This document shows positions 3,618-54,485 of a stretch of DNA of 64,000 nucleotides, piece by piece; position 1 is the first letter of the stretch; each line of letters starts with the position of its first letter. The notes below the pieces were generated by a model. The model was not told the origin of the DNA, ran no database searches, and saw nothing but the letters and a program-made list of their open reading frames with translations. A program made the translations under genes and the position numbers. The stretch is from a virus, in the IMG/VR virus record IMGVR_UViG_3300046787_000508, positions 1 through 64,000 of that record, one strand, 5' to 3'.

Positions 3618-3647
3618 ATGTTAAATGTAATGATTTATTTCTTATTT

Positions 3648-7697: not shown

Positions 7698-7732
7698 ATT
7701 TGATTAGTTTCACTGTCCACTAATGTGTTAAC

Positions 7733-7740
7733 AATAAATA
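7733..7740 (-). promoter_or_regulatory. TATTTATA-type box (TATTTATT variant)
   Basis: On the coding strand TATTTATT lies 35 nt upstream of the start of the 1349-residue fibre gene, in the 82-base gap between two fibre genes. One mismatch to the consensus seen before other virion genes. Confidence 0.4.
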
Positions 7741-7779
7741 CCAAAACAAACGATTATGTTTTAAATAATTAAGTATATT

Positions 7780-10700: not shown

Positions 10701-11538
10701 CGTTAAATGCCCCTATTTGTTGTATTATTTCACCATTATCGTTAATACCGATAAATGTTTGAATATGTGTCGTTCTATATGTTAAGGTTTGTCCTGTGAA
10801 AGTGTTCCAATTAACATATTTTATTGTCGGGTATGGATTGTCAGTTAAACTTGCATTAAGATTAACAACAATACCACTACCAGCCGCAACATTAAATGTT
10901 GTACCACCAGGTGTTGCGGTAATAATACCACCATTTAATAAACCAGTATAAAGATTACCTTCCAACCAACGTAAACGAGTTACGTTACTATAACCTTTAC
11001 CATTTTGTGCAAAATATAAATCATCAGTTGAACCTGACACGAAGATATATGAACCAGATTTAATGGTATCTAAGTTTGTGTTGACAGGTAGGTATTTTGT
11101 ATAACCATCTTGTTCAATATCACCATATATTTTAACAGTAGGTATTGTTGTACTTTTGGAACCAGATATCGTGATTGAACCTGACAATAATGTTGTTCCA
11201 AATAACGTGTTATTACCAATTTGTGTTGTTGAACCCGAAACAGTTAAAGAACCTGTAAGTTGAGTGTTACCAATTAATTTATTTGAACCACTAGTGTACA
11301 GACTACCAGTAACTATTTTATTACCTTCAAGTGTAATACTACCGCTTAATGAAATTGAACCTGTATTAACCGTGTTTGTTGAGATTAATTCTTCGACAGA
11401 AGGTCCTAATGAACCCGACTTAGCCATATAAACTTTACCATCGGTAGTGTTTAATGCTAATTCTCCTAATTGTAAATTGGTGTTAGTGGGTTTTTGACCG
11501 GATACACTACTCCTACGCAGTTTTACTATTTGTGCCAT
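7780..11538 (-). CDS. Long tail fibre protein with Mtd-like N terminus
   Basis: 1252 residues. The N terminus (MAQIVKLRRSSVSGQKPTNT, then LQLGELALNTTDGKVYMAK) is the pattern of the major-tropism-determinant-type N-terminal domain found at the base of many phage fibres. An SGS-rich shaft follows (to about residue 140), then a large central domain (150-560) without repeats. Then comes the module shared with the 1349-residue fibre (TAKELHIDYVTSSVLFQSGS, three exact VSGSSQ motifs). Near 1024-1090 is a head-like module (WTFGHNLGEKYPAIEIFD, then TIIFSSPVSGVATATV) common in phage fibres. Its order next to three other fibre genes suggests a composite fibre. Confidence 0.75.
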   Translation of the reverse strand: MAQIVKLRRSSVSGQKPTNTNLQLGELALNTTDGKVYMAKSGSLGPSVEELISTNTVNTGSISLSGSITLEGNKIVTGSLYTSGSNKLIGNTQLTGSLTVSGSTTQIGNNTLFGTTLLSGSITISGSKSTTIPTVKIYGDIEQDGYTKYLPVNTNLDTIKSGSYIFVSGSTDDLYFAQNGKGYSNVTRLRWLEGNLYTGLLNGGIITATPGGTTFNVAAGSGIVVNLNASLTDNPYPTIKYVNWNTFTGQTLTYRTTHIQTFIGINDNGEIIQQIGAFNDGQYNTTISLGTVLHQNQSTVNASITYPNMAYGYKQRTYDFIKAFGPLKLSGLEIMPTGTLGLNVGSGTAWADGRNYQVDPNNPSYITDSGTAVSKIFRYYQVSGTTFVQDTNNASGYTSLDVTHYNNNGTLTTVPGNNGNNYEWTVQRVFWYPNSATKGIVVYYGNRTYTSATEAAANVQYEPFVEVENTKQNAVYLGAIAVRKDADWANTNTFLVLPGGVFRNVGGSGGGGTVPTARLTDLTDVDVAGATNGDIISYNTTSNKWEHGKQLTGSYQITGSLDITDSLLIGTGSLDNISPEKLHVENSGSYNIARFDGYHYSYAQINLQNHNSGSSASSDFVITADNGTENIHYVDLGINSSTYNAGYVGYENDAYLLNAGKDLYVGTVGGSGHPSNLNLFAQNSWENPQIIISGSKQISFNTGSVSNDYQYEFSGSIKADHDLNVVGDITGSNISGSFIGDGSRLYNIPMSGVTGIELNKIVSGSVSASISPDNGLQINTDVYIDGTLTAKELHIDYVTSSVLFQSGSTKFGDTSDDNHNFTGSVYIDGNLNVNSITGSIDFSNLTNVPTLVSGSSQISYTGITNVPNGIVSGSSQILDGSGIWSGSAQLPNGVVSGSSQISYTGITDVPNGIVSSSQQVIDLGFTTTDSFESFTSSYTSASSSFDTRIDSIYGSVTGLTENFNSHTSSYMSFTSSFESYTSSYNNFTSSVVLASQTSSMTVLSSSYALTASYALNGGGGGTEGRTAKLDQTLASSTWTFGHNLGEKYPAIEIFDNNDYVVIPTSIQAIDDNTLTIIFSSPVSGVATATVGGGIPFISGSYNGRVLAVNDGGPMWKDGMVSGSLQIEEFGFSTTGSNSFVGNQTVTGSLTVRNAKLDATCVTVSTGTTIFDLSDFDGATFDYVVKNGGNMRAGTIVSVWDGAVSSYNETSTLDLGDTSNITFEVSGTGELNTVIAGGTWTVQVLYRALGCTS

Positions 11539-11560
11539 ATATATGTTCTCTCAATGTATT

Positions 11561-11586
11561 GTGGTATATACCACGGTTAATTAACC
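11561..11586. repeat. Two adjacent perfect palindromes upstream of the 1252-aa fibre gene
   Basis: GTGGTATATACCAC (11561-11574) is a perfect 14-base palindrome, followed immediately by GGTTAATTAACC (11575-11586), a perfect 12-base palindrome. They lie between the start codon of the fibre gene and the TATTTATA box, so in the mRNA leader if that box is a promoter. They could be an operator, an RNA hairpin that controls translation, or chance in AT-rich DNA. Confidence 0.5.
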
Positions 11587-14571: not shown

Positions 14572-14853
14572 CTAATCCTTTAATAAATGTTCGTTGATGA
14601 TTGTAACAGCCTGTTCGGTTTCAAAAAAATCCTTACCGGGTATGTAAATTGGTCCATTTCCATCTTCATCTTTTTGTATAAAAATAGTTGGTAAAACGTT
14701 ATGTCCGGTTTGTGATACCACTTGGTCCCATATTGTACGATTCTTATTTATTTCAATGTCTTGATACGGAATCTTCAATTCATCTAATCTAATTTTTAAA
14801 TTATGACAATGTCCACATCCGTTAAGACTAAAAACGATAACCTTTATCCCCAT
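14572..14853 (-). CDS. Glutaredoxin-like protein
   Basis: 93 residues with a compact thioredoxin fold. The redox motif is C13-G-H-C16 after the first strand (VIVFSLNGCGHC), and the cis-proline is P55 in NVLPTIFI. Such phage glutaredoxins reduce ribonucleotide reductase or other disulfides in the cytoplasm. The CGHC motif is more like disulfide isomerases than the CPYC of classical glutaredoxins, so its redox potential and partner may differ. It sits two bases from the thioredoxin gene and ends the operon at a strong terminator. No ribonucleotide reductase gene is in this window to name its substrate. Confidence 0.85.
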   Translation of the reverse strand: MGIKVIVFSLNGCGHCHNLKIRLDELKIPYQDIEINKNRTIWDQVVSQTGHNVLPTIFIQKDEDGNGPIYIPGKDFFETEQAVTIINEHLLKD

Positions 14854-14854
14854 A

Positions 14855-15169
14855 TTACAAATTGAACGATTCTGTGATTATTTTTTCGTAGTATCCCTTA
14901 CCGTTTGCACCTGTGGTTCTACTAATTTCTTTTTTACCTTCGAAAAGAATTACTGTTGGTACACTTCTAATTCCCAACTCCTGAGCTAAGGTCATGTTTT
15001 GGTCAACATCCATCTTAACAATCTCGACACCGTCGAAGTCATTTGAGATTGATTCTAAAACTGGTATCAACGCTTTACATGGTCCACACCAAGTGGCGAA
15101 GAAGTCCACCATTACCTTATCACCGTTATTTAATTTTTCCGTTAATTCTTCTGTTGTTAATGTTCTCAT
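14855..15169 (-). CDS. Thioredoxin
   Basis: 104 residues, the normal length. The motif W27-C-G-P-C31 is in VDFFATWCGPCKALIPV, and the cis-proline is P71 in RSVPTVILFEGKK. All catalytic features are intact, so it should be an active dithiol reductant for ribonucleotide reductase or other cytoplasmic targets. Its start overlaps the last base of the AAA+ ATPase stop codon and the glutaredoxin follows two bases later, so the three are probably made together. A role as a polymerase processivity factor, as in T7, is possible but nothing here indicates it. Confidence 0.93.
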   Translation of the reverse strand: MRTLTTEELTEKLNNGDKVMVDFFATWCGPCKALIPVLESISNDFDGVEIVKMDVDQNMTLAQELGIRSVPTVILFEGKKEISRTTGANGKGYYEKIITESFNL

Positions 15170-24375: not shown

Positions 24376-25722
24376 CTAAGAGTTTTTTTTTATGCTCTCA
24401 TCTTCAGACGGAGCCTCTTCTATTTTTGTTTCAACCACTTCCGGTTGTACGGGTTCTTGTATAACCATCTCAGATAAAGGTTCTTCGATATTATCTAAAA
24501 TGTCGTTAGCCTCATCCAATTCTTTTTGTTCAGATTGATAAACAGGTTCATCGTTAACCATTTCCAAGTCGTATTGTGGTACCTCAGTTTGTTCAGCATC
24601 AATTTCGTTGTTTACCTCATCTAACACCTCATTTATAATTTTAACGTCAATACCAAATTCCTCCACTTCTTCAGGTGTTGCAAATGGTTCAGGAACAAAC
24701 CCGTCAAAATCATCATTTTCCAATTTTCTCTCGTACTCATCTTGATTCATTTCCATAATCTCCTCATCAGATAATGATGGTGTTGGTTCTTGTTGGAAAA
24801 TATTTGTCACATTTGGGTCTATAATGGAAAAATTTTGTCTTTCTTCTTCGATTGTTGGTTCTTCTTGGAAAATTTCCTCCTCTTCAACGATTTGATTGTT
24901 TTCTATGATTTCTTCGTTAGGGATTTCAACCACTTCATTAACCGTCTCAATCACTTCAGGTTCGGTTTGTGGTTCAATAACATCTTCCTTAATTAATGGG
25001 TTATCAAACGGTTCGTCATATAGTCCAAGTTCTTCGTCATTTTTCATCATTTCTGATAATAACTCATTTCTTTTTTTATACTCATTTGCTGCTTTAATAA
25101 GTGCTTCGTTTGGTTTAGATGGATTCTCTAAGTGTTTGGTTAATATTTCTAAGTCTTCGTCAGATAAACGTAATCTTGAAACTTCTCCGATTATTTCTTT
25201 TGCGTCAACCTCATTGATTAATTTTTCATCAATGGTAGATTCAACACCTTTCATTCTATCTTCTTCGGTGAACTTAACTAACATGTGTAGGAAAGACAAA
25301 GAAATGATTGGTAACATTCCACCCGCAAATAATGCTAAGAATCTTTTGTGTCCAACAAAATCATTATTATCAACCCCAATAAATTCAACTAACGGTGAAA
25401 CTAAATCAACCCAATCTTTAAATTGTTTTGAATTAATATCAATAAATGAGTAGGCAAAGAAAATGTTACCGATGAATTGAATCAGGGTAACGATTGCAAA
25501 TGGGAAATAAACTTTACTACCCATGTTTGCCGATATCGCAGCCAACGCAGATAACGCAGCAATTTCAATACCAATAGAAAGATAAACGGACCAACTAACG
25601 GGATTAGAAATACCGTACCATTGGGTTACGTGTGAAATTGACACCACCGCCACAGTCAAGATTGGAATCAAGAACGCGGCGATGATTAATGTTTTATAAT
25701 TCTTATTGAACCAATTTTTCAT
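24376..25722 (-). CDS. Four-pass membrane protein with long acidic tail
   Basis: 448 residues. Four hydrophobic segments at about 10-30 (TLIIAAFLIPILTVAVVSI), 44-65, 72-95 (FPFAIVTLIQFIGNIFFAYS) and 129-152 (LALFAGGMLPIISLSFLHML). Residues 160-448 are cytosolic-looking, acidic and of low complexity, with repeated Glu-rich stretches (EEEIFQEEPTIEEE). It follows the 89-residue membrane protein by 3 bases. The membrane part could reorganise the host envelope and the tail could recruit proteins. No transporter or protease motif is seen. Confidence 0.7.
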   Translation of the reverse strand: MKNWFNKNYKTLIIAAFLIPILTVAVVSISHVTQWYGISNPVSWSVYLSIGIEIAALSALAAISANMGSKVYFPFAIVTLIQFIGNIFFAYSFIDINSKQFKDWVDLVSPLVEFIGVDNNDFVGHKRFLALFAGGMLPIISLSFLHMLVKFTEEDRMKGVESTIDEKLINEVDAKEIIGEVSRLRLSDEDLEILTKHLENPSKPNEALIKAANEYKKRNELLSEMMKNDEELGLYDEPFDNPLIKEDVIEPQTEPEVIETVNEVVEIPNEEIIENNQIVEEEEIFQEEPTIEEERQNFSIIDPNVTNIFQQEPTPSLSDEEIMEMNQDEYERKLENDDFDGFVPEPFATPEEVEEFGIDVKIINEVLDEVNNEIDAEQTEVPQYDLEMVNDEPVYQSEQKELDEANDILDNIEEPLSEMVIQEPVQPEVVETKIEEAPSEDESIKKNS

Positions 25723-38807: not shown

Positions 38808-39572
38808 TTAAGAACAACCACCTATCATTGGCCAAAATGAACTATGTGATATGTTTATCGGGGTCGTGTCTAATAATGTTCCACCACTACTGTATAATTT
38901 TAAATCACCGGATACATTTCCAAAACCATTTGTCTCAGTGTATGTTAATAAACCTTGACCTTGTGAATATAATGGGGTACCACTGTATGTTGCCGTTGCC
39001 GACGAAGATATTGAAGGTGTATATGTTACATAATATCCAACTGGTGCATTGTAAACATATACAGGGAAATACATAGTACATTGTGCGTTATCATTACAAT
39101 TTCCTGACCTACAAATAGGACTAGTGCCCAAACTAACAGATGGTTCTGCCACTGCCGTCGGTGTTGGGGTTGGTGTAGGTGTTGGTGTCGGAGTTGGTGT
39201 TTGAACAACCTCAGTAGGTGTTGGTGTAGGGGTTGGTGTTTGAACAACTGCGGTAGGTGTTGGTGTAGGTGTTTGAACAACCGCTGTAGGGGTTGGTGTT
39301 GGGGTATCTACAGGTGGTGTATCACATACCACCGTTGTACCGTAAGACCATTTACTTTGTACCGGCCCACATATAGTTCTAACCGCATAATGATATGATT
39401 CACCATTAACCAAACCTGGTATGGTAACACTTAATGTTCCAAAAGAAACAGGTGTAGGTGTTATACCATCCAACGACGTTGCGTTCAATGCGTACTTATA
39501 TTCAAATGAACAATCGGTACACGACGCCAATGAAGTTGGTTTAGACCATGAAAATGTTAATGTTGCACTCAT
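38808..39572 (-). CDS. Fibronectin III domain virion protein with Pro-Thr linker
   Basis: 254 residues in three parts. A fibronectin type III domain comes first (about 1-85: LTFSWSKPTSLASCTD, VTIPGLVNGESYHYAVRT). A linker made almost only of Pro and Thr, with AVV or EVV breaks, covers about 88-141. A C-terminal beta domain with cysteines (SPICRSGNCNDNAQCTMYFP) completes it. Such layouts make a bead-on-a-string adhesin projecting from the virion. A TATTTATA box ends only 4 nt before the ATG. The linker is encoded by GGTGTTGG-type repeats when read on the plus strand. Confidence 0.75.
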   Translation of the reverse strand: MSATLTFSWSKPTSLASCTDCSFEYKYALNATSLDGITPTPVSFGTLSVTIPGLVNGESYHYAVRTICGPVQSKWSYGTTVVCDTPPVDTPTPTPTAVVQTPTPTPTAVVQTPTPTPTPTEVVQTPTPTPTPTPTPTPTAVAEPSVSLGTSPICRSGNCNDNAQCTMYFPVYVYNAPVGYYVTYTPSISSSATATYSGTPLYSQGQGLLTYTETNGFGNVSGDLKLYSSGGTLLDTTPINISHSSFWPMIGGCS

Positions 39573-40256: not shown

Positions 40257-41630
40257 TTAATATCCTCCTCCGCTACCTCCTCCGCTAGGGCAGTTAGCGA
40301 TACATGTTGCTTCGTCAGCATACGCTCCGTTTAACACATATGAACAATTACCTAATCCATCACAATCCCAACCATATGTTCCAACAGGTGTTGCAGTTGG
40401 AGTTGGGGTAGGTGTCGGTGTAATTGGGTTATTAACACAATTATGTTCCGCATCACAACTACCGTATTGTATTACGTCAAATGAAGTTACGGCATATTGT
40501 CCATCATAGAAAATTGGGTTACTTTTTGAACAAATATAATAAGTGTATGTACCATCTTGATTATCATACGCCTCAACACCTCCTGTCGCGTTCACCGTTA
40601 CTGTTGTGTTAGAACCTAGTGGTGTGTATACCACAGTTAAACCACTATTTAATTGTATTTCACTTGTATTTAAGGTGTAACTATAACATAAACCGCTATC
40701 ACCCACTATCGGTGTAGGGGTTGGTGTAGGTGGTGTTGGTGTAGGGTCTACACCTCCACAATCCGCACTTGTTGTACACTCACCATTTACGGTTTCAGTA
40801 ATATTAGCATCTGCATTAATTAAATCCATTCCATTATACGTGTAATAGATATTTGTATTATCTTTTATACAAATGTTAAATTCGACTCCGAGTTCATTTC
40901 CACCACTATCTGGAAATTCGGTATATACTGCATTGACCTGTACATCATTTGGTGTTGTGTAAAGTATTCGTAGGTTTTGACCTTCAAATGAAAGTGCAGA
41001 ACTATTAATTGTTAAAATATAACATGTACCCGCTAAAGGTACCACTGTTGGCGTCGGAGTAGGTGTTTGAGCAACTGCAGTTGGTGTAGGGGTTGGTGTA
41101 TCTCCTACAGCCGTTGGTGTTGGAGTTGGTGTTTGAACGACTTCGGTAGGGGTTGGGGTTGGTGTAGGTGTTGAAGTTGGAGTTGGTGTAGGGGTAGCAT
41201 CCGAAACACATGCTGCCGTTAATGAAAATGGTGGGTAACAATCGTGATAACAAATTGCAGTTAATGCTTCAGGTTGTGGGCAACATGATTGATACGCAAT
41301 TGGGTCGTGTAAATAAATGTTCTCAATAATGTATCTTGGTATTTCTGTACCATCTGATAACATAGTTTTTGTTACAGTATCTTCAATTTTAACCCAACAA
41401 TTACTATTGAAGTCTAATCCATTACTTGATATTTCAATACTTGTAGTGCCGGCAGGATACGTTGGACACGTATTATAACTTGAATAGTCAGTACCGTTAT
41501 GGTAATACGTGTAACCTGTTGTAACTGTGAATCCTCCGTAGGCACTATCGTCACCAATAACCGATTTAAAGGAAACCTTAAACGGATTTGGTGAAACAAT
41601 GTTCGTAATATTAACTCTTAAATAACCCAT
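40257..41630 (-). CDS. Virion protein with three Pro-Thr linkers and cysteine modules
   Basis: 457 residues. Residues 1-145 are a beta domain with many cysteines (YQSCCPQPEALTAICYHDC). Pro-Thr linkers follow at about 147-196, 299-314 and 402-416. The domains between them are paralogous: GTCYILTINSSALSFEGQNL and GLCYSYTLNTSEIQLNSGLT, each about 95 residues with TTPNDV/VYTPLG strands. The C terminus (WDCDGLGNCSYVLNGAYADE, then ATCIANCPSGGG) is a small cysteine-knot-like repeat. It is a modular adhesin with duplicated domains. Two TATTTATA-type boxes and an upstream terminator mark it as the start of a transcript. Confidence 0.75.
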   Translation of the reverse strand: MGYLRVNITNIVSPNPFKVSFKSVIGDDSAYGGFTVTTGYTYYHNGTDYSSYNTCPTYPAGTTSIEISSNGLDFNSNCWVKIEDTVTKTMLSDGTEIPRYIIENIYLHDPIAYQSCCPQPEALTAICYHDCYPPFSLTAACVSDATPTPTPTSTPTPTPTPTEVVQTPTPTPTAVGDTPTPTPTAVAQTPTPTPTVVPLAGTCYILTINSSALSFEGQNLRILYTTPNDVQVNAVYTEFPDSGGNELGVEFNICIKDNTNIYYTYNGMDLINADANITETVNGECTTSADCGGVDPTPTPPTPTPTPIVGDSGLCYSYTLNTSEIQLNSGLTVVYTPLGSNTTVTVNATGGVEAYDNQDGTYTYYICSKSNPIFYDGQYAVTSFDVIQYGSCDAEHNCVNNPITPTPTPTPTATPVGTYGWDCDGLGNCSYVLNGAYADEATCIANCPSGGGSGGGY

Positions 41631-41726: not shown

Positions 41727-42209
41727 TTATATGATTCCACCGTCACAACTAAAATCCTGTGCGGTCACTTGTTCAAGGAATGTGTGAGACGTTTCAGATT
41801 CACCTATTGTTCCCTCAAATACAAAGATGTAATCCACATTTCCACTTCCACTGATTCTGATGAATTCTCCACCTATAGGTGAGAATCCTAATTCGGTACC
41901 TGTAAAGACAACAGCCGCAGGTGCATTTCCAATTGGATGTGCCGTTGCGTTTTGTGAACAATAAGGTATAAATGTGTAAGTTTGATTCGCCGATACTGGT
42001 ACGTTTATGGAATTGATGCACGCACCGTCACTTGTTATGTCAAAACTTGTTACGGTATCGGGAATATTAATGTATTCTTGTCCTGCAGCCAAATCGGCTC
42101 TTGACACATTGGTCGCTACCGAGTATGAACCTGGTTGCCCTACGATGTCAAATGGTCCAACGTTTACTGATGAACCTACTGTTAATGTGAATGTTGCTGA
42201 AAATGACAT
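41727..42209 (-). CDS. Small beta-rich virion protein (160 aa)
   Basis: 160 residues, all-beta: MSFSATFTLTVGSSVNVGPF, INIPDTVTSFDITSDGACIN, then EFIRISGSGNVDYIFVFEG. The N-terminal 25 residues resemble the opening of neighbouring adhesin domains. No catalytic motif. It has its own TATTTATA box 25 nt upstream and a terminator behind it, so it forms a single-gene transcript and may be needed in high copy number, as decoration or minor tail proteins are. Confidence 0.7.
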   Translation of the reverse strand: MSFSATFTLTVGSSVNVGPFDIVGQPGSYSVATNVSRADLAAGQEYINIPDTVTSFDITSDGACINSINVPVSANQTYTFIPYCSQNATAHPIGNAPAAVVFTGTELGFSPIGGEFIRISGSGNVDYIFVFEGTIGESETSHTFLEQVTAQDFSCDGGII

Positions 42210-42274: not shown

Positions 42275-43954
42275 TTACACTTGTTCATCAAATTCATTAC
42301 AAGGAATTTGGAAGTTACTACAAGGTACTACTTGTTCAATACAAGGTGATGACACATTATCTCTACAGAAATAACCTCCACTTGGCGGTACAGGTGTTGG
42401 GGTTGGAGCGATATAAGGGTCGGCACCTCCACACCATTCACTATTATCACATTTTCCATTTGTTACCACATCAAGACCTGCGTCTATAAATCCACTACCA
42501 TTAACACCATATTTAAATGATGGGTATTGTGTTGAACATATGTGTATGATGTAATCATTAATTGGTGAGAAATCAGTGGGGAAACTATAATATGGTTCAG
42601 ATACGTACGTTGTGTCAGTTTTCCTATAAGTGACATATAAACTTTCACCATTATAAGTTAACATGCTCGATGGAATTGTTATCGTGTAACAAGTACCAGT
42701 ACATGAAGTAGTGTCAACCACTCCACTATATGTAACACATCCATTTGCATCTGTCACTTCAACACAGTAACCATATTCATCAATACCTGTTACGGTAACC
42801 GATGGAGAACCTGAAGTTATATTTGTGTAAGTACCAATTAAATCTCCACTTCCACAAGAAACATAAGGTGCCGTTGTGTCGGCATATAGTTTATATGTTT
42901 TAGGGAACACCCCACCTAAAGATGATAATGTAATAACACCATCTGCAGTACCGTTACATGTGGCATATGTGTTTACCACAATACTCGCCGATTGTTCAGA
43001 TGGTTGTGTAAGTGTTACGTTATAAGTAGTAACATAACCATCTGAATCAGTAACATATACATCGTAATTTCCTTGTGTTAAGTTAGAATAAGTCCTACTT
43101 GTTGTTGTTAATTGGTACGTTCCTCCGGCACCTAATTTAACATAATAAGGTGAACCTATTCCACCTGAAATATTTGAAACCACAATGGTTCCATTACTAC
43201 CACCGTAACAATTAACGTTAGTGACATCAACATTTGCAGATACCGGAGGCACTGGTGTAGGTGTTGGGGTCGATGTATTAGTTGGTGTAGGGGTCGGCGT
43301 ATTAGTTGGTGTAGGTGTTGGGGTATTAGTTGGTGTTGGGGTATTAGTTGGCGTATTAGTTGGCGTTGGGGTAGGTGTAGGTGTTGGTGTTGGTACAAAT
43401 GTTGTTAGTACCACATCAAAACTACAGTTCAATGTCGGTGTAGGTGTTGGTGTTGCAGTTGGTGTAGGTGTAGGAGTTGGTGTCACAGTGGTAATATCAA
43501 CATCAAAACTACAATCTAATGTTGGAGTTGGTGTAGGTGTTGCCGTTGGTGTATTAGTTGGAGTTGGGGTTGGTGTAGGGGTAATAATGTTCACATCCAC
43601 GTCAAAACCACAATCTAATGTTGGGGTCGGTGTAGGTGTTGGTGTAGGTGTTGGCACAAACGTTGATAATATCACATCGAAACTACAATCCAAAGTAGGT
43701 GTTGGGGTTGGCGTCGGAGTGGCGGTATTTGTCGGTGTCGGCGTTGGTGTTGGTGTGTTAGTAGGTGTTGGAGTCGGCGTTGGTGGTGGGCAATCGATAA
43801 CTGATAATAATAGTCCGTTTAGTTGTTGTCTATATATGTTATTAAATGAATAATACCCATCTGGTGCCAAAGTTGTACGAGGACTATCAATCCATATTTT
43901 GGTTGCGGTCTCGAATGATGACGTATCGATAAAGTATGTTCCTGTAGTTGCCAT
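42275..43954 (-). CDS. Tail adhesin with LDC-x-FDV/Pro-Thr repeats and SprB-like modules
   Basis: 559 residues. A short N-terminal domain (1-54; [17 protein letters not shown]) leads into a repeat region (about 57-236) of Pro-Thr runs interrupted by four modules with L-D/N-C-x-F-D-V. Two SprB-like repeats follow at about 240-415: [20 protein letters not shown] with [20 protein letters not shown], and [20 protein letters not shown] with [15 protein letters not shown]. These resemble the gliding-adhesin repeats of flavobacteria. [21 protein letters not shown] domain paralogous to those of the 457-residue protein closes it. It is probably a projecting adhesin that mimics or binds the same surface as its host's adhesins. 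Confidence 0.75.
43221..43800 (-). repeat. Coding Pro-Thr / LDC-x-FDV repeat block
   Basis: Tandem CCNAC(N) codons for Pro-Thr read on the minus strand, giving GGTGTAGGTGTTGGGGT-like G-rich sequence on the plus strand, with four interspersed modules of about 15 residues. Synonymous variation is high, which limits slippage. Confidence 0.85.
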
Positions 43955-43960
43955 GTATGT

Positions 43961-43968
43961 TATAAATA
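43961..43968 (-). promoter_or_regulatory. TATTTATA box, candidate late promoter
   Basis: Perfect coding-strand TATTTATA (in GTCTATTTATAACATAC), 6 nt before the ATG of the 559-residue adhesin gene. Confidence 0.5.
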
Positions 43969-43986
43969 GACTATTTTTATTTTATT

Positions 43987-44817
43987 TTAAAGAATACAGT
44001 CGCCGCCCAATTCAACTATTTTTCCTGCACTATCTAATCTTATTGAATTATAAATTCCAATGAATGACGCACTTATTGAATACCATCCAGGGGCACCAGT
44101 TACAGCAGATGTTTCACCCAATATTGGGTTCGAATATACAATAGAATTGACTTCGATAGTACCATTTGTTACCGTATATGTTCCCATAACGGCACCTGTT
44201 TGGTTACCTGCAACACACGCATCATATGATGTACTATATGGTCCAACTAAGACATAATATTGTGTCGGAGTTGACGTTGGGGTAGGTGTAGGTGTAGGTA
44301 CGATTTCACATTCGCAAGCTAATGATGGTAAATTCTCGTCATAACACAATTCAAGAGTTGTTGATTGACAACCTGATATCGATGTTACCTCAAGTTCACC
44401 CGCATTAACGGTATTGTATAATGCACAAAAAGTATGTTCCACTTGACCGTTAGTACCGTCAATAGTTCTCGTTATTTCATTACATTCACAGTCAGTATAG
44501 TAATAATTGAATATTCCAATATTTGAAGTTACGGTATAAGTGTAACAACCAATCGGTATTGTGTAACTATCGTTATTAACATTACTATCAATAGAACAGA
44601 AAGAATCGGGGTCACTCGATACAACGATACTTGTTGATTCGTCTGGAACCGAAACAATTACCCCATCAGTTGTAGATAATTCACTGAAGGTTAACCCTGT
44701 TGCCGGTAGTCCATTTGAATGTAACGTTGCTCTTTTATTTGAGTCAATGTTGTCATAGTATATATCAAATACACCATTTGATGACCCGATGACTATTCTA
44801 ACTTTTATGTATTTCAT
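43987..44817 (-). CDS. Virion adhesin-like protein with short Pro-Thr hinge (276 aa)
   Basis: 276 residues: an N-terminal beta domain (MKYIKVRIVIGSSNGVFDIY; VPDESTSIVVSSDPDSFCS), a second cysteine-containing domain (GCYTYTVTSNIGIFNYYYTD), a short Pro-Thr hinge at about 175-184, and a C-terminal domain with SYDACVAGNQTGAVMGTY and APGWYSISASFIGIYNSIR. The last type of domain recurs in Bacteroidota secreted proteins and their phages as far as I recall, with unknown ligand. It precedes the 559-residue adhesin and probably belongs to the same appendage. Confidence 0.7.
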   Translation of the reverse strand: MKYIKVRIVIGSSNGVFDIYYDNIDSNKRATLHSNGLPATGLTFSELSTTDGVIVSVPDESTSIVVSSDPDSFCSIDSNVNNDSYTIPIGCYTYTVTSNIGIFNYYYTDCECNEITRTIDGTNGQVEHTFCALYNTVNAGELEVTSISGCQSTTLELCYDENLPSLACECEIVPTPTPTPTSTPTQYYVLVGPYSTSYDACVAGNQTGAVMGTYTVTNGTIEVNSIVYSNPILGETSAVTGAPGWYSISASFIGIYNSIRLDSAGKIVELGGDCIL

Positions 44818-44829
44818 TTTATGTTATTA

Positions 44830-45045
44830 TTAATTTACATTAATCCAATCGTAACAATCAGTTATTGTCGTTAAAACATCACTATGTGAATTATTTAACT
44901 CTTGACCTAATTTACAAACCATATACTCTTCAGTATTTGCATTTTTAAAAATACAATAATTAACATCGTTAATTATTTTCGTCTCAATACGTCCGGCACT
45001 TTCTAATGTTTGGTATAAAATTGCCGTTACTTCTTTTTCTTTCAT
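44830..45045 (-). CDS. Small hypothetical protein (71 aa)
   Basis: 71 residues: KEKEVTAILYQTLESAGRIE, then a strand VNYCIFKNANTEEYMVCKLG and an acidic end. It lies between two virion genes with 11-12-base gaps, so it is in the same transcript. Size and place would fit an assembly chaperone for the adjoining adhesins. Not recognised. Confidence 0.6.
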   Translation of the reverse strand: MKEKEVTAILYQTLESAGRIETKIINDVNYCIFKNANTEEYMVCKLGQELNNSHSDVLTTITDCYDWINVN

Positions 45046-45056
45046 TTTATATTATT

Positions 45057-48000
45057 TTATACTGTTGGTGTTGTTGTGTCATTATTATTAAGTAATCCCG
45101 AACCTGTTGTTAAATTATAGGTTAACGTGGCAATTCTTTGTCCCGATGTTGACGATTGACTTGTGATTTTTTTACCTACAGAATCTATATTATAAGTGCC
45201 TGTTGCTGTTGAATTAACCCACACGAATCCACTTTTTGTTGGTGTACCGCCTTTCCATAAAGTAGCTGCCACATTAACATTGTTATTACCAACTGTACCG
45301 AACCAAAACCCTCTTAAATCCATTACTAACTCCGTTGACGATGGATATGCGGTTTTAAATACATTTAAATTAACCAATACCGATTCAAATCCAGTACCGG
45401 TATTATCACCACCCCACGTTAAATATGGGGTACCACTCATTGGCCATTGTGATTTATAAGACCAACCAATATATTCAATTGGTGTGTCTTGACCCACAAA
45501 TGGTGTGACTATTCTTGTTCTTGTATCTAAATCATCTCCATCGGTAAATTCATAAGTTAACATCATATAATCAGCGTCAAATGTAAAGATTGACGTACCT
45601 AAAGTAAATGTAACATCGTCGGTACATTCTGAAGAATCACTTATAATTACGGTGTATTCTGTATTTGCACTTAAACCCGTTATAACAAACGGTGAAGAAC
45701 ACGAACCTTTGGAAACGCCGTTTAATGAATATGATGTTTGTCCATTTGAACCTGCGAATGTAATAGTTGCACTACCTAAAGTACCGCCCGAAACATCAAC
45801 CGTTTCCGTGGAAACTATGGTTAAATAACATGATGATGGTGGTGGTGTGTAACAAGTGGTTGATGTCCCAATTGCATATGTGGTTTTATTAAATGGATTC
45901 GGTGTTGTTATACTATTAATTGTTATACCTGTAACAACTTCACCACCACTTATTTGATTACCATATTGGACAAACGTTGATGGGGAATTGTTTGACGTTT
46001 TTACATTATATGTTCCACTAAGTCCCACGTTTTCTGTGTATACCTTAACAACCATACTAATCGGATTTGTAGTTGTTGTTGGGACGCCATCTAATACACT
46101 ATTAATGTAAAACCCACGATTAAATAACGAACCACAACGTTCTTCAACGTTCAATGTTATAGTTTGTTCTTTATAGTAATAGAAAGGTTTATTACCTATC
46201 CAATCAATTAAAGGTCGATACCAACCGGTATTTGCTTGTGAATGTGACGTGGTGTTAAAATTATTATAAACTTGGAAATCGTCCAAAGTTTCTAAATTAT
46301 TTATGAATCCCTTTTTTAAATTACCATCAGTGTATAAACTATTCGGGTCAAAACTCATGTCATTATCATACCCATTTGTTAGATATGTTAAGGTCATGGC
46401 ATTTGCGTTTGTTAAAAACCAGTTACTTGAATAATCTAAGTTCGTAGTTACTATCTGTTCTCCCGTAGTTGTTGTTGTACTATTAGATGATGACATATAA
46501 TATATTCCATCAATTACACCATTTGTTGTATGATAAAATGTACAGTATGTAGTGGTTCCCGTTACACCGTAGTATCCGTTCAAAACTTTTTGACAACCTG
46601 ATGCGTCAAAATATAGACTCTTACCGATAGTTGCGCCACCATTGTCTCTATCATCATAAAATAACGTTGCTCGGGTTGGTGTATTTTCTACTTTTAATTC
46701 ATGTGTGAAATTTACGTCCAACTCACCTATCTCCTCGTCAGCTATAACTTGACAATAATTTGCATAATTTTCAGCGTAGTCAACAGCGGCGTTAAACACG
46801 GCCAAAGCTTTATTATTAGCGTCTTGTTGACTCACACAACTAAATTCGCTTCCGTTTTCAACTGTAATAGTAGTTGAAGTTGCGGTTTCTAAATCACAAC
46901 AATTTGGAGTTACATTATGTGTTAAATTGTTATTATTATAATAAACAATTCCCGTCCCACAATAAGGTAATGGTTTTCCTGATGTGTATGATAAAACAAT
47001 CAATGAATTGTAATCAGTTACAGTTGTTGGTTCATCAGCTTTAATTGAATATTGAAATTGGAATTTAAGTGGGTCTTCATTAATCATTGCATTGGTGAAT
47101 GATAATTCTTTTGACACAATTTTATTTCCTGTTTGTGTGTAATAATAAACACCGTCACAATAATAACCATTGTTTATTGTTGTAAGTGTGGGATTTCTAT
47201 AAAGAACGGTATCGTGAGATTCGTTACTAACTTCAATATATGGACCATCTGTAAAGTGGTGTAAAAATTGTCTACAATCCTCTCTATATCTTTTTGTTTT
47301 TTTACCGAAAATAATTACTAAAAGAGCAATTAAAACTATAGCACCTAACACCCATGGATTTACTAACGCCGCACTAATCCACTGTCCAACATTTGAAAAT
47401 AAAGTTATACCCCATGGTGAAAATGGTCCAATACCACCGGCAAACCATGCTGATATGGTTGTTCCAATGGCACTTGTAGATATTGCCGAACCAATTGGAC
47501 CAATTAGAGCTAACCCTAATATAGTAGCACCTTGTGCCCAATCATTTGCGTCCCAACTTCTATCATAACCTTTTGCCACACCTAACAATAATTTACTCAA
47601 TGCATGTGTTGAACCGACAACAGGATTATGTTGACCGTTTGACATGGTATATTTAGTAAAGACACTATCATTCGATGTTTTAATGTCAGTAGAATGGTAC
47701 CCCATGTAATATCTATATTGTTCTGGTTTAGATAATGAGGATACACTTGTTATACTTCTTAGTCTCCCAACACCCTCAATAAATGGCATTGTACATGCAT
47801 CTGAAGTTTGTGCACCTGAATCGAACCACATCCTTGGTCCGAAAGTTTCGTATGTTGTTTTTGGACTTCTAAATAATTTTTTAGTAACAGTCACTTCCGT
47901 TTGTGTACCATAAGACCTATCAAAAATACCACCAACTTTATAAACGTTACTACCATAACCATAATAATAAGGTAGTGCCGGATTATTAAATCCTTTAGCG

Positions 48001-48599
48001 GCATATATCGGTGTATTATCAGTCCAAGATTCGATAGGAACTTTAGAATATAATTTAGTTCTTAACTTGGCTGTACTATCTATTGCGTCATATGGAGAAT
48101 ATACGTGTAAACCTGTACTATATTCATATAATGGTGTTGGACAATTGTACGAAATGGTGGCACTTGATGTTGTCGGAGGAGTACCTCTTTTACCCATTGA
48201 CACACACACATTTAAAATGTTACTTTTTACAGTGTCCTCAACATTAACAATTACATAAAAAACATTACTTGTATTTACAAAATCGTCATTTTTTAATTTA
48301 TATTCATCAAGGATTAACGATGTTTTTACTGGTCTATATAATCCATCTTCAGTTTGTGATATTGAAACGAAACCTCCGTTTGGGTCAAAGAAACCTACTG
48401 AAACGTAATCTAACGTACCGGTATATGTAACTTGAAAAACAGTAATACCGTAATCGGTACTTCCCAAATCTAAAGTCACAGTTTTATTTGCGAACCTCAT
48501 CGATTTGTCATATGCGTCATTGGTACCTATTGATGGTCTCGCTGACGTATAATCACTTTGTGTAAAATTTATTGTTGATGAATTATTAAATGTTGGCAT
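45057..48599 (-). CDS. Giant virion protein with internal membrane segment and SprB-like domain
   Basis: 1180 residues. Residues 1-340 are beta-rich tail-type domains. A hydrophobic stretch at about 360-435 contains ATILGLALIGPIGSAISTSA and a strong membrane helix, VLGAIVLIALLVIIFGKKTK, followed by positive charges. Near 600 SCVSQQDANNKALAVFNAA with a following YAENYAN resembles the DUF5977 motif of Bacteroidota surface proteins. About 935-1010 is SprB-like (CYLTIVSTETVDVSGGTLGS, then YTVIISDSSECTDDVTF). A membrane helix inside a tail protein suggests membrane insertion during DNA entry, or a tape-measure-like segment. The function is inferred. Confidence 0.7.
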   Translation of the reverse strand: MPTFNNSSTINFTQSDYTSARPSIGTNDAYDKSMRFANKTVTLDLGSTDYGITVFQVTYTGTLDYVSVGFFDPNGGFVSISQTEDGLYRPVKTSLILDEYKLKNDDFVNTSNVFYVIVNVEDTVKSNILNVCVSMGKRGTPPTTSSATISYNCPTPLYEYSTGLHVYSPYDAIDSTAKLRTKLYSKVPIESWTDNTPIYAAKGFNNPALPYYYGYGSNVYKVGGIFDRSYGTQTEVTVTKKLFRSPKTTYETFGPRMWFDSGAQTSDACTMPFIEGVGRLRSITSVSSLSKPEQYRYYMGYHSTDIKTSNDSVFTKYTMSNGQHNPVVGSTHALSKLLLGVAKGYDRSWDANDWAQGATILGLALIGPIGSAISTSAIGTTISAWFAGGIGPFSPWGITLFSNVGQWISAALVNPWVLGAIVLIALLVIIFGKKTKRYREDCRQFLHHFTDGPYIEVSNESHDTVLYRNPTLTTINNGYYCDGVYYYTQTGNKIVSKELSFTNAMINEDPLKFQFQYSIKADEPTTVTDYNSLIVLSYTSGKPLPYCGTGIVYYNNNNLTHNVTPNCCDLETATSTTITVENGSEFSCVSQQDANNKALAVFNAAVDYAENYANYCQVIADEEIGELDVNFTHELKVENTPTRATLFYDDRDNGGATIGKSLYFDASGCQKVLNGYYGVTGTTTYCTFYHTTNGVIDGIYYMSSSNSTTTTTGEQIVTTNLDYSSNWFLTNANAMTLTYLTNGYDNDMSFDPNSLYTDGNLKKGFINNLETLDDFQVYNNFNTTSHSQANTGWYRPLIDWIGNKPFYYYKEQTITLNVEERCGSLFNRGFYINSVLDGVPTTTTNPISMVVKVYTENVGLSGTYNVKTSNNSPSTFVQYGNQISGGEVVTGITINSITTPNPFNKTTYAIGTSTTCYTPPPSSCYLTIVSTETVDVSGGTLGSATITFAGSNGQTSYSLNGVSKGSCSSPFVITGLSANTEYTVIISDSSECTDDVTFTLGTSIFTFDADYMMLTYEFTDGDDLDTRTRIVTPFVGQDTPIEYIGWSYKSQWPMSGTPYLTWGGDNTGTGFESVLVNLNVFKTAYPSSTELVMDLRGFWFGTVGNNNVNVAATLWKGGTPTKSGFVWVNSTATGTYNIDSVGKKITSQSSTSGQRIATLTYNLTTGSGLLNNNDTTTPTV

Positions 48600-48614
48600 C
48601 TTTTATATCTTAAT

Positions 48615-51600
48615 TTATACTTGACAAGTTATTGGTTCCGAACCACAAACACCCAAAGATGTTGCGATACCATTAGTTAATGAGTAAATTACTGGTTCGT
48701 TAATCCACGATTGATTTAATTTATATAAACCATCCGCAGTTGGTGTGGTTAAACCTTCGTCAAAATACCATGTTGTATTTTCCAACCCATTATTATTTAA
48801 ATCATTTTCATTAAAGAATACGTTTATTGTGTTTTCACATCCAATACAAGCATCTTCTTTAGTTGCACCATCTTGGTAATAACAGAATTGTTTAGATGTA
48901 ACACCTTGTTTATCAACAATAGCGTAATATGTAATATCATAGTTAGCGGTATGTGTTAATGTACCATTATTTGTTATGATGTTATTAATTCCAGGTGCCA
49001 TACCCCATCCAATAAAGTTAGAACTATTAGTTGCCGTTGCAGTTGCTGTTAAACTAGTTCCAATCGCAACTGTTTTTGTTTTTGTATTAAAGTTAACACC
49101 ACTACCATCATCAATATGTCCACTTGCTAATGGATTTATTGGTGATAATATGTATGTAACGTTAACATTATCAGGGTCACATATTTGAACCGCCTCAACT
49201 AAGCTAACACATTCTATTGGTGTACCAGTAGGTGTGGGTGTTGGAGTAGGTGTCGGCGTGTCCGTAGGTGTTGGAGTCGGCTCCGAAGTTGGGGTCGGTG
49301 TAGGGGTTGGGTTAACTATCTCAACTATTACATCAAAACCACAATCTAACGTCGCGGTAGGTGTAGGAGTTGGTGTAGGTTCACCTGTCGGTGTAGGAGT
49401 TGGCGTCGGAGTAATAATATTTACATCGACATCGAAACTACAGTCTAACGTTGCCGTTGGTGTCGGTGTAGGTGTAGGTGTTGGTTCCGAAGTTGGAGTT
49501 GGTGTCGGAGTGTTTGTTGGACCCGCAGTCGGTGTTGGTGTAGGAGTTGGTGTTACCACATCAACTATTACATCAAAATTACAATCTAATGTTGGTTCCG
49601 GCGTTGGAGTATTTGTTGGCGTAGGTGTTGGAGTGGGTGTTACTACATTTATATCCACGTCAAAATTACAATCCAATGTTGGAGTAGGTGTTGGCGTAGG
49701 TGTAGGTTCACCTGTCGGTGTTGGGGTTGGTGTAGGTGTGATAATATTCACGTCAACATCGAAACTACAATCTAATGTAGGTGTCGGTGTTGGGGTCGGC
49801 TCCTGTGTAGGAGTCGGTGTTGGTGTAACAATATTTACATCAACATCAAAACTACAATCTAATGTTGGTTCTGGTGTAGGTGTAGGGGTTGGTGTGGGTA
49901 CAAATGTCGATAATACCACATCGAAACCACAGTCTAAAGTTGCGGTCGGTGTGGGAGTTGGTGTAGGTTCACCTGTCGGTGTTGGAGTTGGTGTCGGTCC
50001 TTCAGTTGGTGTTGGTGTAGGTGTTGGTCCCTCAGTCGGAGTATTAGTCGGCGTAGGGGTCGGCTCCGAAGTTGGTGTTGGGGTCGGAGTTGGTTCAACG
50101 GTTGGTGTTGGCGTTGGTGTAGGTTCAACGGTAGGTGTTGGCGTGTTTGTTGGAGTCGGAGTATTAGTCGGCGTAGGTGTTGGAGTACCCGTAGGTGTTG
50201 GGGTATTAGTCGGAGTTGGTGTATTTGTAGGTGTAGGTGTTGGTGTCGGAGTTGGTGGGATACATTCAGGATAATAAATTGGTCCACATGTCTCACCAAC
50301 TTGGTCATTAGTACAAACAGGTAATCCTGTTGCATCTCTAACCATATCATTAACGTCAGAATTACTACTACAATCAAATCCAATGAATTGTTGTGATAGA
50401 TATTCGTCCATAAATTTGAACTTCTCTTCTTTATAAGAAACAACGATAGTATTAACATCAGTTGATTGACCATTTAATAATACTATGTTTTGTGTGTTTC
50501 CCGTTACATTAAAATGATAAAATATTTTTTTGTGATTAAATGTATTACAGTCAATTAACTCAACACTTGTAACTTCAATTAATTCACCATTTTCACTAAC
50601 CAATAAATCACCTTTTTGATAGTAATCTTCATTAACATCACAACAAGGTATTTCTGTAATTTCAGGTTTAATGAATAAATCTTCAGGATATTTGTATATA
50701 AATTGATATGGTATACTTTCTAAATTGATACCAATGTTAGTATACACCAAAACTTTACTTGTTGGTAATATCTCGTAAGTGTCATTGATTAAACTTGTTT
50801 TAACCGTAGAAAGACATTCCTTATTTTCAACTGTTACACCTGTGTATTCATATGCGAAACTATAATCATTGTTAATTTCCGCGTCTCTAAATTCTTGTGA
50901 GGTTAGGAAGTTACAATTTTTTAAATCAATTGAAATAAGAACATCACCTATTGATACGTTTTGAGTTGTTACACCACTAATTGAATTATCGTTTAATTTA
51001 CTAATAAATTCATCTTTTGATGTTGGTACATTACCACTAATTAATTTGTAAACAATACTACCTTTTTTTACACCGTAATCAAACGATGGTCTATATTGTA
51101 CTCTTGGGTTGATTGTGTATCCAGTAACGTCGTCAGCAATTTTAACAATTTTTTGTTGTAGTCCCTCAATTTTTACTCTTTGTTCACAGTTCGCAGCGTC
51201 TGAAAATATTAAATCTATAGTATCACTCTCCAAGAAGCTTGGGATAATGTACTTACATCTAACTATATTGTCATCAATAACACTAACCGCCTCACATATT
51301 GGTGAAGCATTAACATCATCGTCACATTCTTGATGAACGTAAATTGGCCATCTATAAGGGTCTCCACTTTCGTCACCCACAGCACCACTAACAGTAAAGT
51401 ATATGTCACTCTGTAATTGACAATTAGTAGTGTCACCAGTAAAAACTCTACATGGAGTACTAACGTCAACTCTTAAACTACATTCTTGTTTTGCAATACT
51501 ATAGTTAGGTGTAAAGTAAAAATCAACTAACTCATCAACTCTACATTCATTGTAGTCACTTGAGTGTGAAATAAATCTAACTTTTTCAATCCCATCAATA

Positions 51601-54485
51601 TCAATGAAGTAATCAGCGGATATTGTTTTCTTTGGTGATTGAGTACAAGATTCAACACCCGTGAATTCAACGTACGGTTCGTAATCAATCAAACAACCCG
51701 CAGAGTCTTGTGTTAATGAATTAATGTCATTAATTAAACCATTTAATGTTGTTTTCCAAAGTGTTTTTACCGTATCAATCGTTGTTGACCCAGTAAAATT
51801 CACCACCCATGATTGATTATTAAGGTACGTACCTCTATAATCACAGATTAACGGAATACTCGTTGTTGATGATGTAAGTTTTGTACATTCATTTGTTGGG
51901 GTAAAAGGTCCAAATGGTCTTATTAATGACGTATTCTTGTTATAAACCGTACCATTAATGTCCAACGACAATGTATATGTTAATCCACCAAATACGTGTA
52001 ATCCTCTGAATTTAGCGTGGTTTTCATAATCTATATTTCCATTACCGTCATAACCCCCACCAATGTAAGTTTCTAAATCCTCTTCAATTACATTTTCAAA
52101 ATTTGGATAAAGAACTTCAATAAATTCTTTTGGTGTACACGGTTGTCTATGTTGGTATTTCGACCTGTTTAAAACTCCGTTCTCAATTAAATTACCACCT
52201 AACCATTGTGTGGTTGCCGGAATAAATTGTTGAATAACTTCAACCCAATATGGACTCATTCTTTCAATGAACTCATTGATTGTAACAAAGTTATAAGGTG
52301 TAAACCCAACACTTGTCATGTAATCTTTGTAAATTTCCTTTAAGACTCTATATTCCTTTTTGTACTTAATAATATGTGAGTTCTTAATATTTTGACTTAC
52401 AATATTATTTAAGAATTGTGAAAACGTGACACCTGTTTGTGGTGTCATTGTGTGGAAACTTAAAGATAAATCTCTAGATTTTCTGTATATGTCATAATCA
52501 ATTGCTCTATCTGAAGATAGGAACACATTGATATTTTTTCTATTTAAAGTTAATTTGGAATCGTCGTCATTTACAACAACTTCCGTTTTTCTATTATCGA
52601 TTTCAGATGATATATCAAAACCGTAATCTAAACCAGGTAATTTTCTATAAACATTAAAGTAATCCTCACCATATGTGAAAGGTGCGGATTTTGTTTTTAA
52701 TACTTTTACTCTACCTGTTAAGTTAGATGTGTAAGTATCTAATATGTCTGAAGACCTATGGTCTAATGTTTTTCTATACCAACCTGAACCTTTAGCAAAG
52801 AAATAATCCCCGTTGGTTGTTTGTATTTTTCTTGGTAACCCACTATCCTCACTAACAGGATATTCACTTCTTGTTAGGGTTGTACTTCCGGTCGTTGTAA
52901 CAAGTCTATATGAATATGCAGGATATTCAACACCATCAATGGTAGTGTCAAATGGAACGAATTCCATATGATTAAATTCTTTTACCCCTTGGATAACATT
53001 ACGAATGTCATCTTCGAAAGTTTTAGTTGGTAATAAACTATCAACCTTGTAAACATACTCATCCAATCTAATCATTGGTTCAGGTGCCCCGATGAATTTT
53101 AGGAAGAACTCAATTGCCAATCTTGTACCTTTTGATTTGTAAAGATGTGCTAAGTTTGAGATTAATCTTCTATAAAATTCGTATTCGGCCTCAACTAAAT
53201 TAGGACCTAATGAAACACCTTCATATTGTGATGTGTGTCTCGTATATAGTGAATCTTGTAATGTCTTTTCATCGAATAGATTTACCGTCGATAAACCTAA
53301 CGTTTCAGATAAGTTTTTTAATAATAAATCGGGAACATTGTTAATACCATCATAACTTACATTTCTCATGTAAGCGATATTATCAATGAATTTTTTTATT
53401 TTATCAAAACTTTGTCCATATATTTGGAAAATTGCTTCCGCTTTTTTCTCTTCAGTATCAAATTCAAAAAGTTGTGGTGCCGTTAAAAACCTAACTAATA
53501 AATTAGATTTATAGTCATCAATTTCATCACCTAATGAACTTAATTTTTCAACGTAATATTCAAACTCTAAACCAACAATTTGGATGTTCCACCCATCTCT
53601 AGCAATTGGCCAATTGATTTGTTCACTGGTTAATTCTGTTGAATAACCGTCACTTGAATCTCTCGGAACCGTAAAATTAGCTTGGAATTTTGGTAACGTC
53701 TCTCTGTTTAATAAAACAGTTTGTAAATCATCTAATTGTTTGTAGAACTCCTCAGTTATCCCGTCATTCGGTCTAATGATATATGAGTCGGTATATGTAC
53801 TGTTATTGTTGAAACAATTTCCCTCAACTTTCATCGAGATTAGATTGTTAACGTCCGGTTCACTATAAACTAAGATATTATGTGTTGTACCACTAAAGTC
53901 TAACACATATTTTGTATATGACGAGAAAAAGTTTTTAAAGTCGTTCTCTGTCTGAGGTAAGGTATTACTTTTTGGTTCAATAAGTACAACACCCATTGGG
54001 TTATAAATTGCACTGTATTGGAATTTAAATTCTGTTGTATTTGTTAATCTATCGTAAACCGCAGATTCTGCCGTTAAGTTCGATGCTAAACCAGGTGTTG
54101 TTCCGTCCACCATAATTCCCGATGGGAATTTCTTAATGATATCTGTAACTGCGGTTCCTAATCTTTGTTTTAGTGAACCATATAATGATTTACCCGCATC
54201 AGATTTTGAATTTTTAAATTTAATTTTCTGTTTTTGACCGCTAAAAGGTAAAGTATCAACAACCGGACTCTCCTCTTCTTTTAAATCATCTAAAGTGATG
54301 AAATCAGAAAAGGGAACTGTTCTAAATTCTTTACTATCCTTTTCAGGAATAACTCTATCAATTGCAAAATTGGTGTTAGTCAGTTGACTTGACCCATCGG
54401 TAATTTGATTACCGACAAGACTATCACTAAACGTTTCCGCTCCACTTGCAGCCTGACTTGGTACCTTGTATCTTATTTTTGCCAT
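48615..54485 (-). CDS. Giant tail/baseplate protein with gpI-like core and LDC-x-FDV repeats
   Basis: 1956 residues, the largest gene here. At about 430-480, [20 protein letters not shown] followed by [17 protein letters not shown] matches the P2 gpI-type tail motif (xxKGTxxAIxxxLxxxG) that places proteins at the baseplate periphery. Several beta domains with cysteines follow. Residues about 1408-1753 form the longest Pro-Thr region, with seven LDC-x-FDV modules. A C-terminal domain (about 1755-1956) with [15 protein letters not shown] and [16 protein letters not shown] is a likely distal adhesin. So one chain joins a baseplate base to a distal receptor-type head through a flexible stalk. Its start overlaps the upstream stop (TAATG). 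Confidence 0.75.
49225..50262 (-). repeat. Long coding Pro-Thr block with seven LDC-x-FDV modules
   Basis: About 345 codons of Pro-Thr-rich repeat with G/N/E-containing breaks (GEPTPTP, NTPTPTN) and seven modules with T-L-D-C-S/G/N-F-D-V. On the plus strand it is rich in GGTGTTGG and GGGGTCGG-like runs and leaves a spurious open frame of Gly-Val repeats. Confidence 0.88.

Follow-up and report, generated by a model that had tools for sequence, protein, structure and literature searches.

What is a short, cysteine-bearing motif doing in the middle of long proline-threonine stalks, and is it a motif at all rather than a by-product of biased composition? The question is raised by a viral DNA of 64,000 nucleotides (positions 1 to 64,000 of IMG/VR record IMGVR_UViG_3300046787_000508, which has 202,894 bases; this stretch is called the window), in which the open reading frames for proteins of 559 and 1956 residues contain a 14-residue module, TL[DN]C[SGN]FDV-x5-[TVN], in four and seven copies respectively, each of them flanked by Pro-Thr runs. 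These counts and this framing match exactly those of a preliminary description of the locus. A degenerate DNA pattern written for the module found just these 11 sites in the whole record, and a reversed control pattern found 0. All 11 copies carry the cysteine and, two residues later, a phenylalanine.

Conservation of the module and selection on its sequence

Relatives, labelled L009 to L072, are uncultivated phage contigs from IMG/VR scans, and within their stalks of proline, threonine and serine (P/T/S stalks) the module family was defined as x[DN]CxF[DG][VI]x[VIL]xx[TVI]. As this pattern itself demands Cys and Phe, the conservation of these two residues in the 259 regular modules is judged from a set of stalk islands and from a list of atypical cases; the islands were collected without requiring a cysteine, which makes the test of its conservation independent of the pattern. 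Cysteine was present in 249 stalk islands, the 45 islands without it were linker variants of the P/T/S type, and no island of any other composition lacked it. According to the list of atypical cases, the phenylalanine was missing only in L026 and L027, each of which has a single copy.

Across the 259 modules an alternating pattern, C-x-F-D-[VI]-D-[VI]-D-[VIL]-[VAT]-T, recurs, in which positions +4, +6 and +8 from the cysteine are nearly always V, I or L and aspartate occupies position +1 in 230 modules, +3 in 246, +5 in 245 and +7 in 201. As judged from this order of residues, the module would form an amphipathic beta-strand, one face being made up of C-F-V-V-V and the opposite face of Asp/Asn. 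Aspartates at alternate positions in most of the relatives' copies could also mean that Ca2+ or Mg2+ is bound on the Asp face, the module serving as a metal-dependent switch or clamp. This is very unlikely, however: all 11 copies of the window have S, G or N in place of D+1, D+5 and D+7 often give way to V, I, N, S, T or E, and the known Ca2+ loop signature DxDxDG is absent from the module.

The copies in the window differ at almost all synonymous positions. When copies within single genes were compared, the proportion of synonymous differences (pS) was 0.56-0.87 and that of nonsynonymous differences (pN) 0.02-0.24, with pN/pS between 0.03 and 0.34; the window gave 0.338 for the 559-residue protein, 0.293 for the 1956-residue protein and 0.334 between the two genes, at a pS of about 0.7, and most relatives gave 0.03-0.16. 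Nearly saturated synonymous sites in combination with a conserved protein indicate selection on the protein sequence, and they also indicate that most copies are not recent duplicates of DNA. The possibility, raised in the preliminary description, of a low-complexity artefact without conservation of Cys and FDV in relatives is therefore ruled out by the cysteine islands, the pattern of the 259 modules and the pN/pS values.

The Pro-Thr tracts of the two genes show mixed codon usage, and thus are not a DNA microsatellite. The (SPTPTPTI) repeats of Borg proteins are tandem repeats at the nucleotide level and almost perfect in protein (PMC9879509). The window tracts are like these and other Pro/Thr- and Pro/Ser-rich linkers, which are known from phage and extracellular proteins, in being P/T/S tracts of outward-facing proteins under selection, but unlike the Borg repeats they are codon-mixed and bear a conserved, structured-looking module.

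Variants of the module ending in LSTFV and VNIIT are indeed found in both genes, as had been noticed earlier, but a recent recombination between the genes is not supported by them: their DNA identity between the genes, 0.79-0.82 versus 0.76-0.83 expected from random codons for the same residues, is no closer than random codon choice (p 0.16-0.84). Within the window array, neither the neighbouring copies nor all copies taken together exceeded a codon-shuffle null in similarity. An ancient common origin or similar selection might account for the shared variants. In L028, L029, L050, L060 and L062, neighbouring copies were modestly above the codon-shuffle null, so that local duplication does occur in these contigs.

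Copy number and spacing in related phages

About 250 additional copies of the module were found in the relatives, and the comparison of copy number among related phages, which had been proposed as a check, gave 0 to 22 copies per protein with the module kept. Homologues of the 1956-residue protein are 51-63% identical to it over the first ~830 residues and then pass into a P/T/S stalk. The stalk has a single atypical module in each of L026 and L027, two back-to-back modules in L041, and 11 to 22 modules in L028, L029, L031, L036, L038, L043, L051, L058 and L060; L019, with an N-terminal region 86% identical to that of the window protein, has at least 5 in an array that is cut by the contig end. 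Modules in pairs, spaced by only 11 residues and lacking a Pro-Thr linker in between, stand at the stalk start in L041 (in a 2708-residue frame starting at 9986), L060 and L064.

Two or three genes of one phage carry the module. L018 has three such genes, with 6, 3 and 5 copies, and L028, L039, L043 and L058 have a second module-array protein, which starts like the 276-residue protein of the window and goes on into cadherin and SprB repeats. Pfam SprB and cadherin repeats were above cut-off in L018 and L028, where the stalks run on into them, a likeness to adhesins of these types; the module itself lies outside the repeats, preceding them within the Pro-Thr stalk. Neither the module arrays, searched against 50,697 cultured-phage records, nor the N-terminal region of the 1956-residue protein gave a tblastn match in cultured phages, and the blastn matches there were weak, scattered and apparently to Pro-Thr tract only. 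The sole pattern match in bacterial genomes lay opposite a sigma-54-type regulator, on the other strand, and hence is due to chance.

Successive modules are separated by distances that grow from the N- to the C-terminus. Among arrays with at least 4 modules the rank correlation (rho) was positive in 20 of 22, the two others both being cut by contig ends, and in arrays of at least 10 modules rho was 0.79-0.96, with p from ~0.003 down to 5e-5. Spacing rises in L028 (29, 23, 23, 29, 29, 39, 41, 41, 39, 45, 45, 51, 57, 55, 61, 51, 61, 67 residues) and in L072 (25, 25, 27, 29, 37, 41, 41), as well as in L031, L036, L038, L039, L043, L050, L051, L058, L060, L062 and L069, and also in L018. The steps measure 6 residues in the L028 group (23, 29, 39, 45, 51, 61, 67) and 10 residues in the L039/L058/L060 group (27, 37, 47, 57, 63, 73, 83, 93), and in L050 the gradient, from 20 to 63 residues, is found in an unrelated gene. 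Related phages are not independent of each other, and the weight of the gradient lies in its recurrence with different linker units. In the 1956-residue protein of the window the distances are 25, 29, 33, 29, 47 and 33 (rho 0.77, permutation p 0.047). The gradient is thus clear in the relatives and suggestive in the window, and it may correspond to a graded stiffness of the stalk.

Growing distances could also arise in a neutral tandem array, in which an insert that arose by chance within a Pro-Thr repeat is multiplied by slippage and the older linkers are the longer ones, and the excess similarity of neighbouring copies in the five contigs named above would fit such a process. That idea of age needs the identity of neighbours to fall toward the long-linker end, yet identity did not drop toward the C-terminus (mean rho +0.20), by which longer linkers as merely older ones are rejected. 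For the module itself, a neutral array is refuted by near-saturated synonymous change with a conserved protein, by the invariant cysteine and by the codon-mixed tracts, which leaves the explanation highly improbable.

A copy number that varies freely, as avidity would have it, and the retention of the module in several genes of one phage would be in keeping with multivalent binding epitopes, each adding its strand to a beta-sheet of a protein on the host surface or of another virion protein, with the Pro-Thr tracts only spacing and presenting them; short amphipathic strands on flexible linkers are a usual form of such strand-addition ligands. Receptor-binding parts, however, usually diversify, and here the C, F, D core hardly varies across phages with very different stalks and copy numbers. 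The growing spacing, too, is without an obvious role in avidity. An epitope function seems unlikely.

A possible fibre shaft of beta nodes on a Pro-Thr rod

That no family of this form had been described, as the preliminary description supposed, was borne out by profile searches, in which the module arrays passed the cut-off for no family of Pfam, PHROGs, NCBIfam or the PDB. The module alignment had no PDB sequence match at expectation values (E) up to 10, and thus no similarity to a solved fibre shaft, and the N-terminal region of the 1956-residue protein had no PDB sequence match either. Matches of both proteins to PHROG 15511 reflect composition, as they span the Pro-Thr tract and no stretch passes alone. 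No description of the module was found in the open-access literature. The evidence supports a real family that was hitherto undescribed, fibres built of short repeated beta elements being as such already known.

Below threshold, NCBIfam returned matches to lanthipeptide leaders of the FDLD and FxLD types (E 0.002-0.005; best score 18.7 versus a cut-off of 20). They would suggest boxes (FxLD/FDLD) like those in the leaders of ribosomally synthesized and post-translationally modified peptides (RiPPs), recruiting a modifying enzyme to the Thr-rich tracts, but short-motif matches of such size are expected by chance. No match to PqqD or the RiPP recognition element was found in the record, where the positive control worked, and none to LanB, for which the control also failed to match. 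The identity as a lanthipeptide leader was rejected on the score and the missing PqqD partner, and a RiPP-like role as a whole is hardly credible.

The gene context points elsewhere. A Baseplate_J gene (PF04865, 23.3 bits versus a cut-off of 21.1) lies at 64195-64704 (-), just outside the window; it shares the strand of the gene run that leads to the 1956-residue frame and is located upstream of this run, and a sheath gene (PF04984, 50.7 bits) lies at 91809-92333 (-). Because both are in the same record, it is most likely that of a contractile-tailed phage. The module-bearing proteins would then be fibres or adhesins that are fixed to the phage in its baseplate region; the earlier designation as tail genes stands to the extent that this context, and nothing else, speaks for it.

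In the likeliest reading, which is tentative and held with some doubt, each module is a beta-strand node that would join fibre chains along a stiff rod of Pro-Thr, with its anchor in the baseplate region. The tracts, to judge from their composition, would form stiff, extended rods of the polyproline-II type. Each module would contribute a short amphipathic strand, whose Cys, Phe, Val/Ile, Val/Ile and Val/Leu side chains point one way and whose Asp/Asn side chains point the other way. Strands from at least two parallel chains might come together through their hydrophobic faces, and the small beta node so formed would zip the chains together. The invariant cysteine would be buried in the node and may, in what is the weakest step, form a disulfide once the phage exits the reducing cytoplasm. 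With nodes dense near the N-terminal anchor and sparser distally, the tether would be stiff at the base and become flexible toward the tip. Consistent with this arrangement are the strand pattern, the cysteine islands, the selection on the protein, the variable copy number and the presence of several such genes per phage, to which may be added the recurrent gradient, the Baseplate_J and sheath context and the adhesin-like cadherin/SprB architecture that follows the last module in relatives.

An AlphaFold model of a single chain with four modules had a mean predicted local distance difference test score (pLDDT) of 38.5 and gave no fold, only short, low-confidence strands in the module regions; for the N-terminal region of the 1956-residue protein the mean was 38.3, and at such confidence neither model speaks for or against the arrangement. 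Several observations weigh against it. The back-to-back modules of L041, L060 and L064 are not explained by one node per module. A cross-link between chains through the cysteine, which had been suggested earlier, is possible and fits its invariance, yet a cysteine on the hydrophobic face could simply be buried; one cysteine per module is awkward in a trimer, where three cannot all pair, and the phage-encoded thioredoxin and glutaredoxin favour reduced thiols during assembly.

Strands might instead stack within one chain, forming an intramolecular sheet or solenoid with Pro-Thr loops, so that the stalk would be a compact, extensible spring. The shortest linkers, of ~11 residues, are about enough to run back along one strand, and loops of graded length would unfold in a graded manner; linkers of up to ~80 residues, however, would be very large loops, and the low-confidence single-chain model builds no such stack. 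This arrangement is considered quite unlikely.

Joining of parallel chains, as in the beta-node reading, has precedents in the triple beta-spiral and beta-helical shafts of the adenovirus fibre and of T4-type and pyocin fibres, in which a short repeated beta-strand motif joins parallel chains. The likeness is that of a viral fibre made from a short repeated beta-strand motif, with an oligomer that in the present case is only presumed. In those shafts the repeats are directly consecutive, whereas the modules of the window are isolated in a Pro-Thr rod, have an invariant cysteine and stand at varying distances that grow along the chain. The delta fibre (beta-bracelet) of Orsay virus, an RNA virus of nematodes, is likewise a virion fibre of short, repeated beta elements, which are put together between chains as the modules may be (PMC7565637). 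That fibre differs in being a pentamer, and the abstract of the paper mentions no Pro-Thr rods (PMC7565637). No sequence relation to it was found.

Fully extended, the stalk of the 1956-residue protein would measure ~110 nm, assuming polyproline II at 0.31 nm per residue. A more speculative and rather doubtful proposal is that these stalks represent virus fibres of a new class in their architecture. A rod of the polyproline type would be cross-joined by cysteine beta-strand nodes with graded spacing from base to tip, which would give a tapered tether of up to ~300 nm whose length and stiffness evolve by gain and loss of module-linker units. If true, this would be a genetically adjustable, graded protein tether. 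The shafts of very long adhesive fibres in large environmental phages are mostly unannotated, as Pro-Thr and Pro-Ser tracts are filtered out as low complexity; the Cys-x-Phe-Asp-Val strand in a P/T/S stalk provides a searchable signature for a shaft family absent from the tested family libraries, and the spacing that grows toward the tip is a quantitative regularity open to mechanics and microscopy.

Layout of the locus and neighbouring proteins

Table 1. Position of the module-bearing proteins, their stalks and modules, and of one related protein (window coordinates)
Feature	Position	Strand	Description
559-residue protein	42275..43954	-	short N-terminal segment, Pro-Thr stalk with 4 modules, C-terminal part
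Its Pro-Thr stalk	43226..43798	-	~190 residues
Its module	43655..43696	-	14 residues
Its module	43580..43621	-	14 residues
Its module	43481..43522	-	14 residues
Its module	43394..43435	-	14 residues
276-residue protein	43987..44817	-	short Pro-Thr stretch without module
1956-residue protein	48615..54485	-	N-terminal region of ~1400 residues that is conserved in relatives, Pro-Thr stalk with 7 modules, C-terminal region of ~195 residues
Its Pro-Thr stalk	49203..50273	-	~356 residues
Its module 1	49899..49940	-	14 residues
Its module 2	49824..49865	-	14 residues
Its module 3	49737..49778	-	14 residues
Its module 4	49638..49679	-	14 residues
Its module 5	49551..49592	-	14 residues
Its module 6	49410..49451	-	14 residues
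Its module 7	49311..49352	-	14 residues

Neither protein matched Pfam SprB or Cadherin, and the 559-residue protein had only a sub-threshold Ig-like Pfam match; by eye, its C-terminal part resembles that of the SprB/cadherin protein of L018. The N-terminal region of the 1956-residue protein was suspected, from a KSKGTR motif, to be gpI-like (Tail_P2_I, PF09684), which was rejected as the record had no match to this family at E up to 10, with a positive control that matched. The plus-strand frames 43221-43853 and 49234-50274 are a long GVGVGV antisense mirror of the Pro-Thr tracts, which annotation pipelines may call genes; on inspection by eye they were rejected as such.

Pro-Thr stretches without the module also occur in the 276-residue protein and in window proteins of 254 (38808-39572) and 457 residues (40257-41630). 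Compared by eye through its N-terminal sequence, the 276-residue protein has a counterpart in L018 of 358 residues with 3 modules, and in L028 and L043 an N-terminal part of this type runs on into a stalk with modules and cadherin and SprB repeats.

Elsewhere in the window, the glutaredoxin and thioredoxin genes adjoin at 14662-15163, and a 448-residue protein (24376-25722) contains a TacA1 antitoxin-like segment at residues 173-216 (PF08681, 30.7 bits, cut-off 21). A protein of 1180 residues (45057-48599) has a DUF5977 segment, and its C-terminal domain (PHROG 24956) is found again in the large phages XacN1, CM1, RAS14 and Synechococcus phage Sf-FS3. In the L018 counterpart (10630-11565) of the 160-residue window protein (41727-42209) there is an insert whose matches of Hint/intein type are weak and lie below cut-off. 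In L009, a protein of 1621 residues (2935-7800; ~106934-111799 of the genome) combines Pro-Thr stalks without the module and a Laminin_G_3 domain with another short repeat, ~10 copies of an IPxNDxxYxxIP-like decapeptide.

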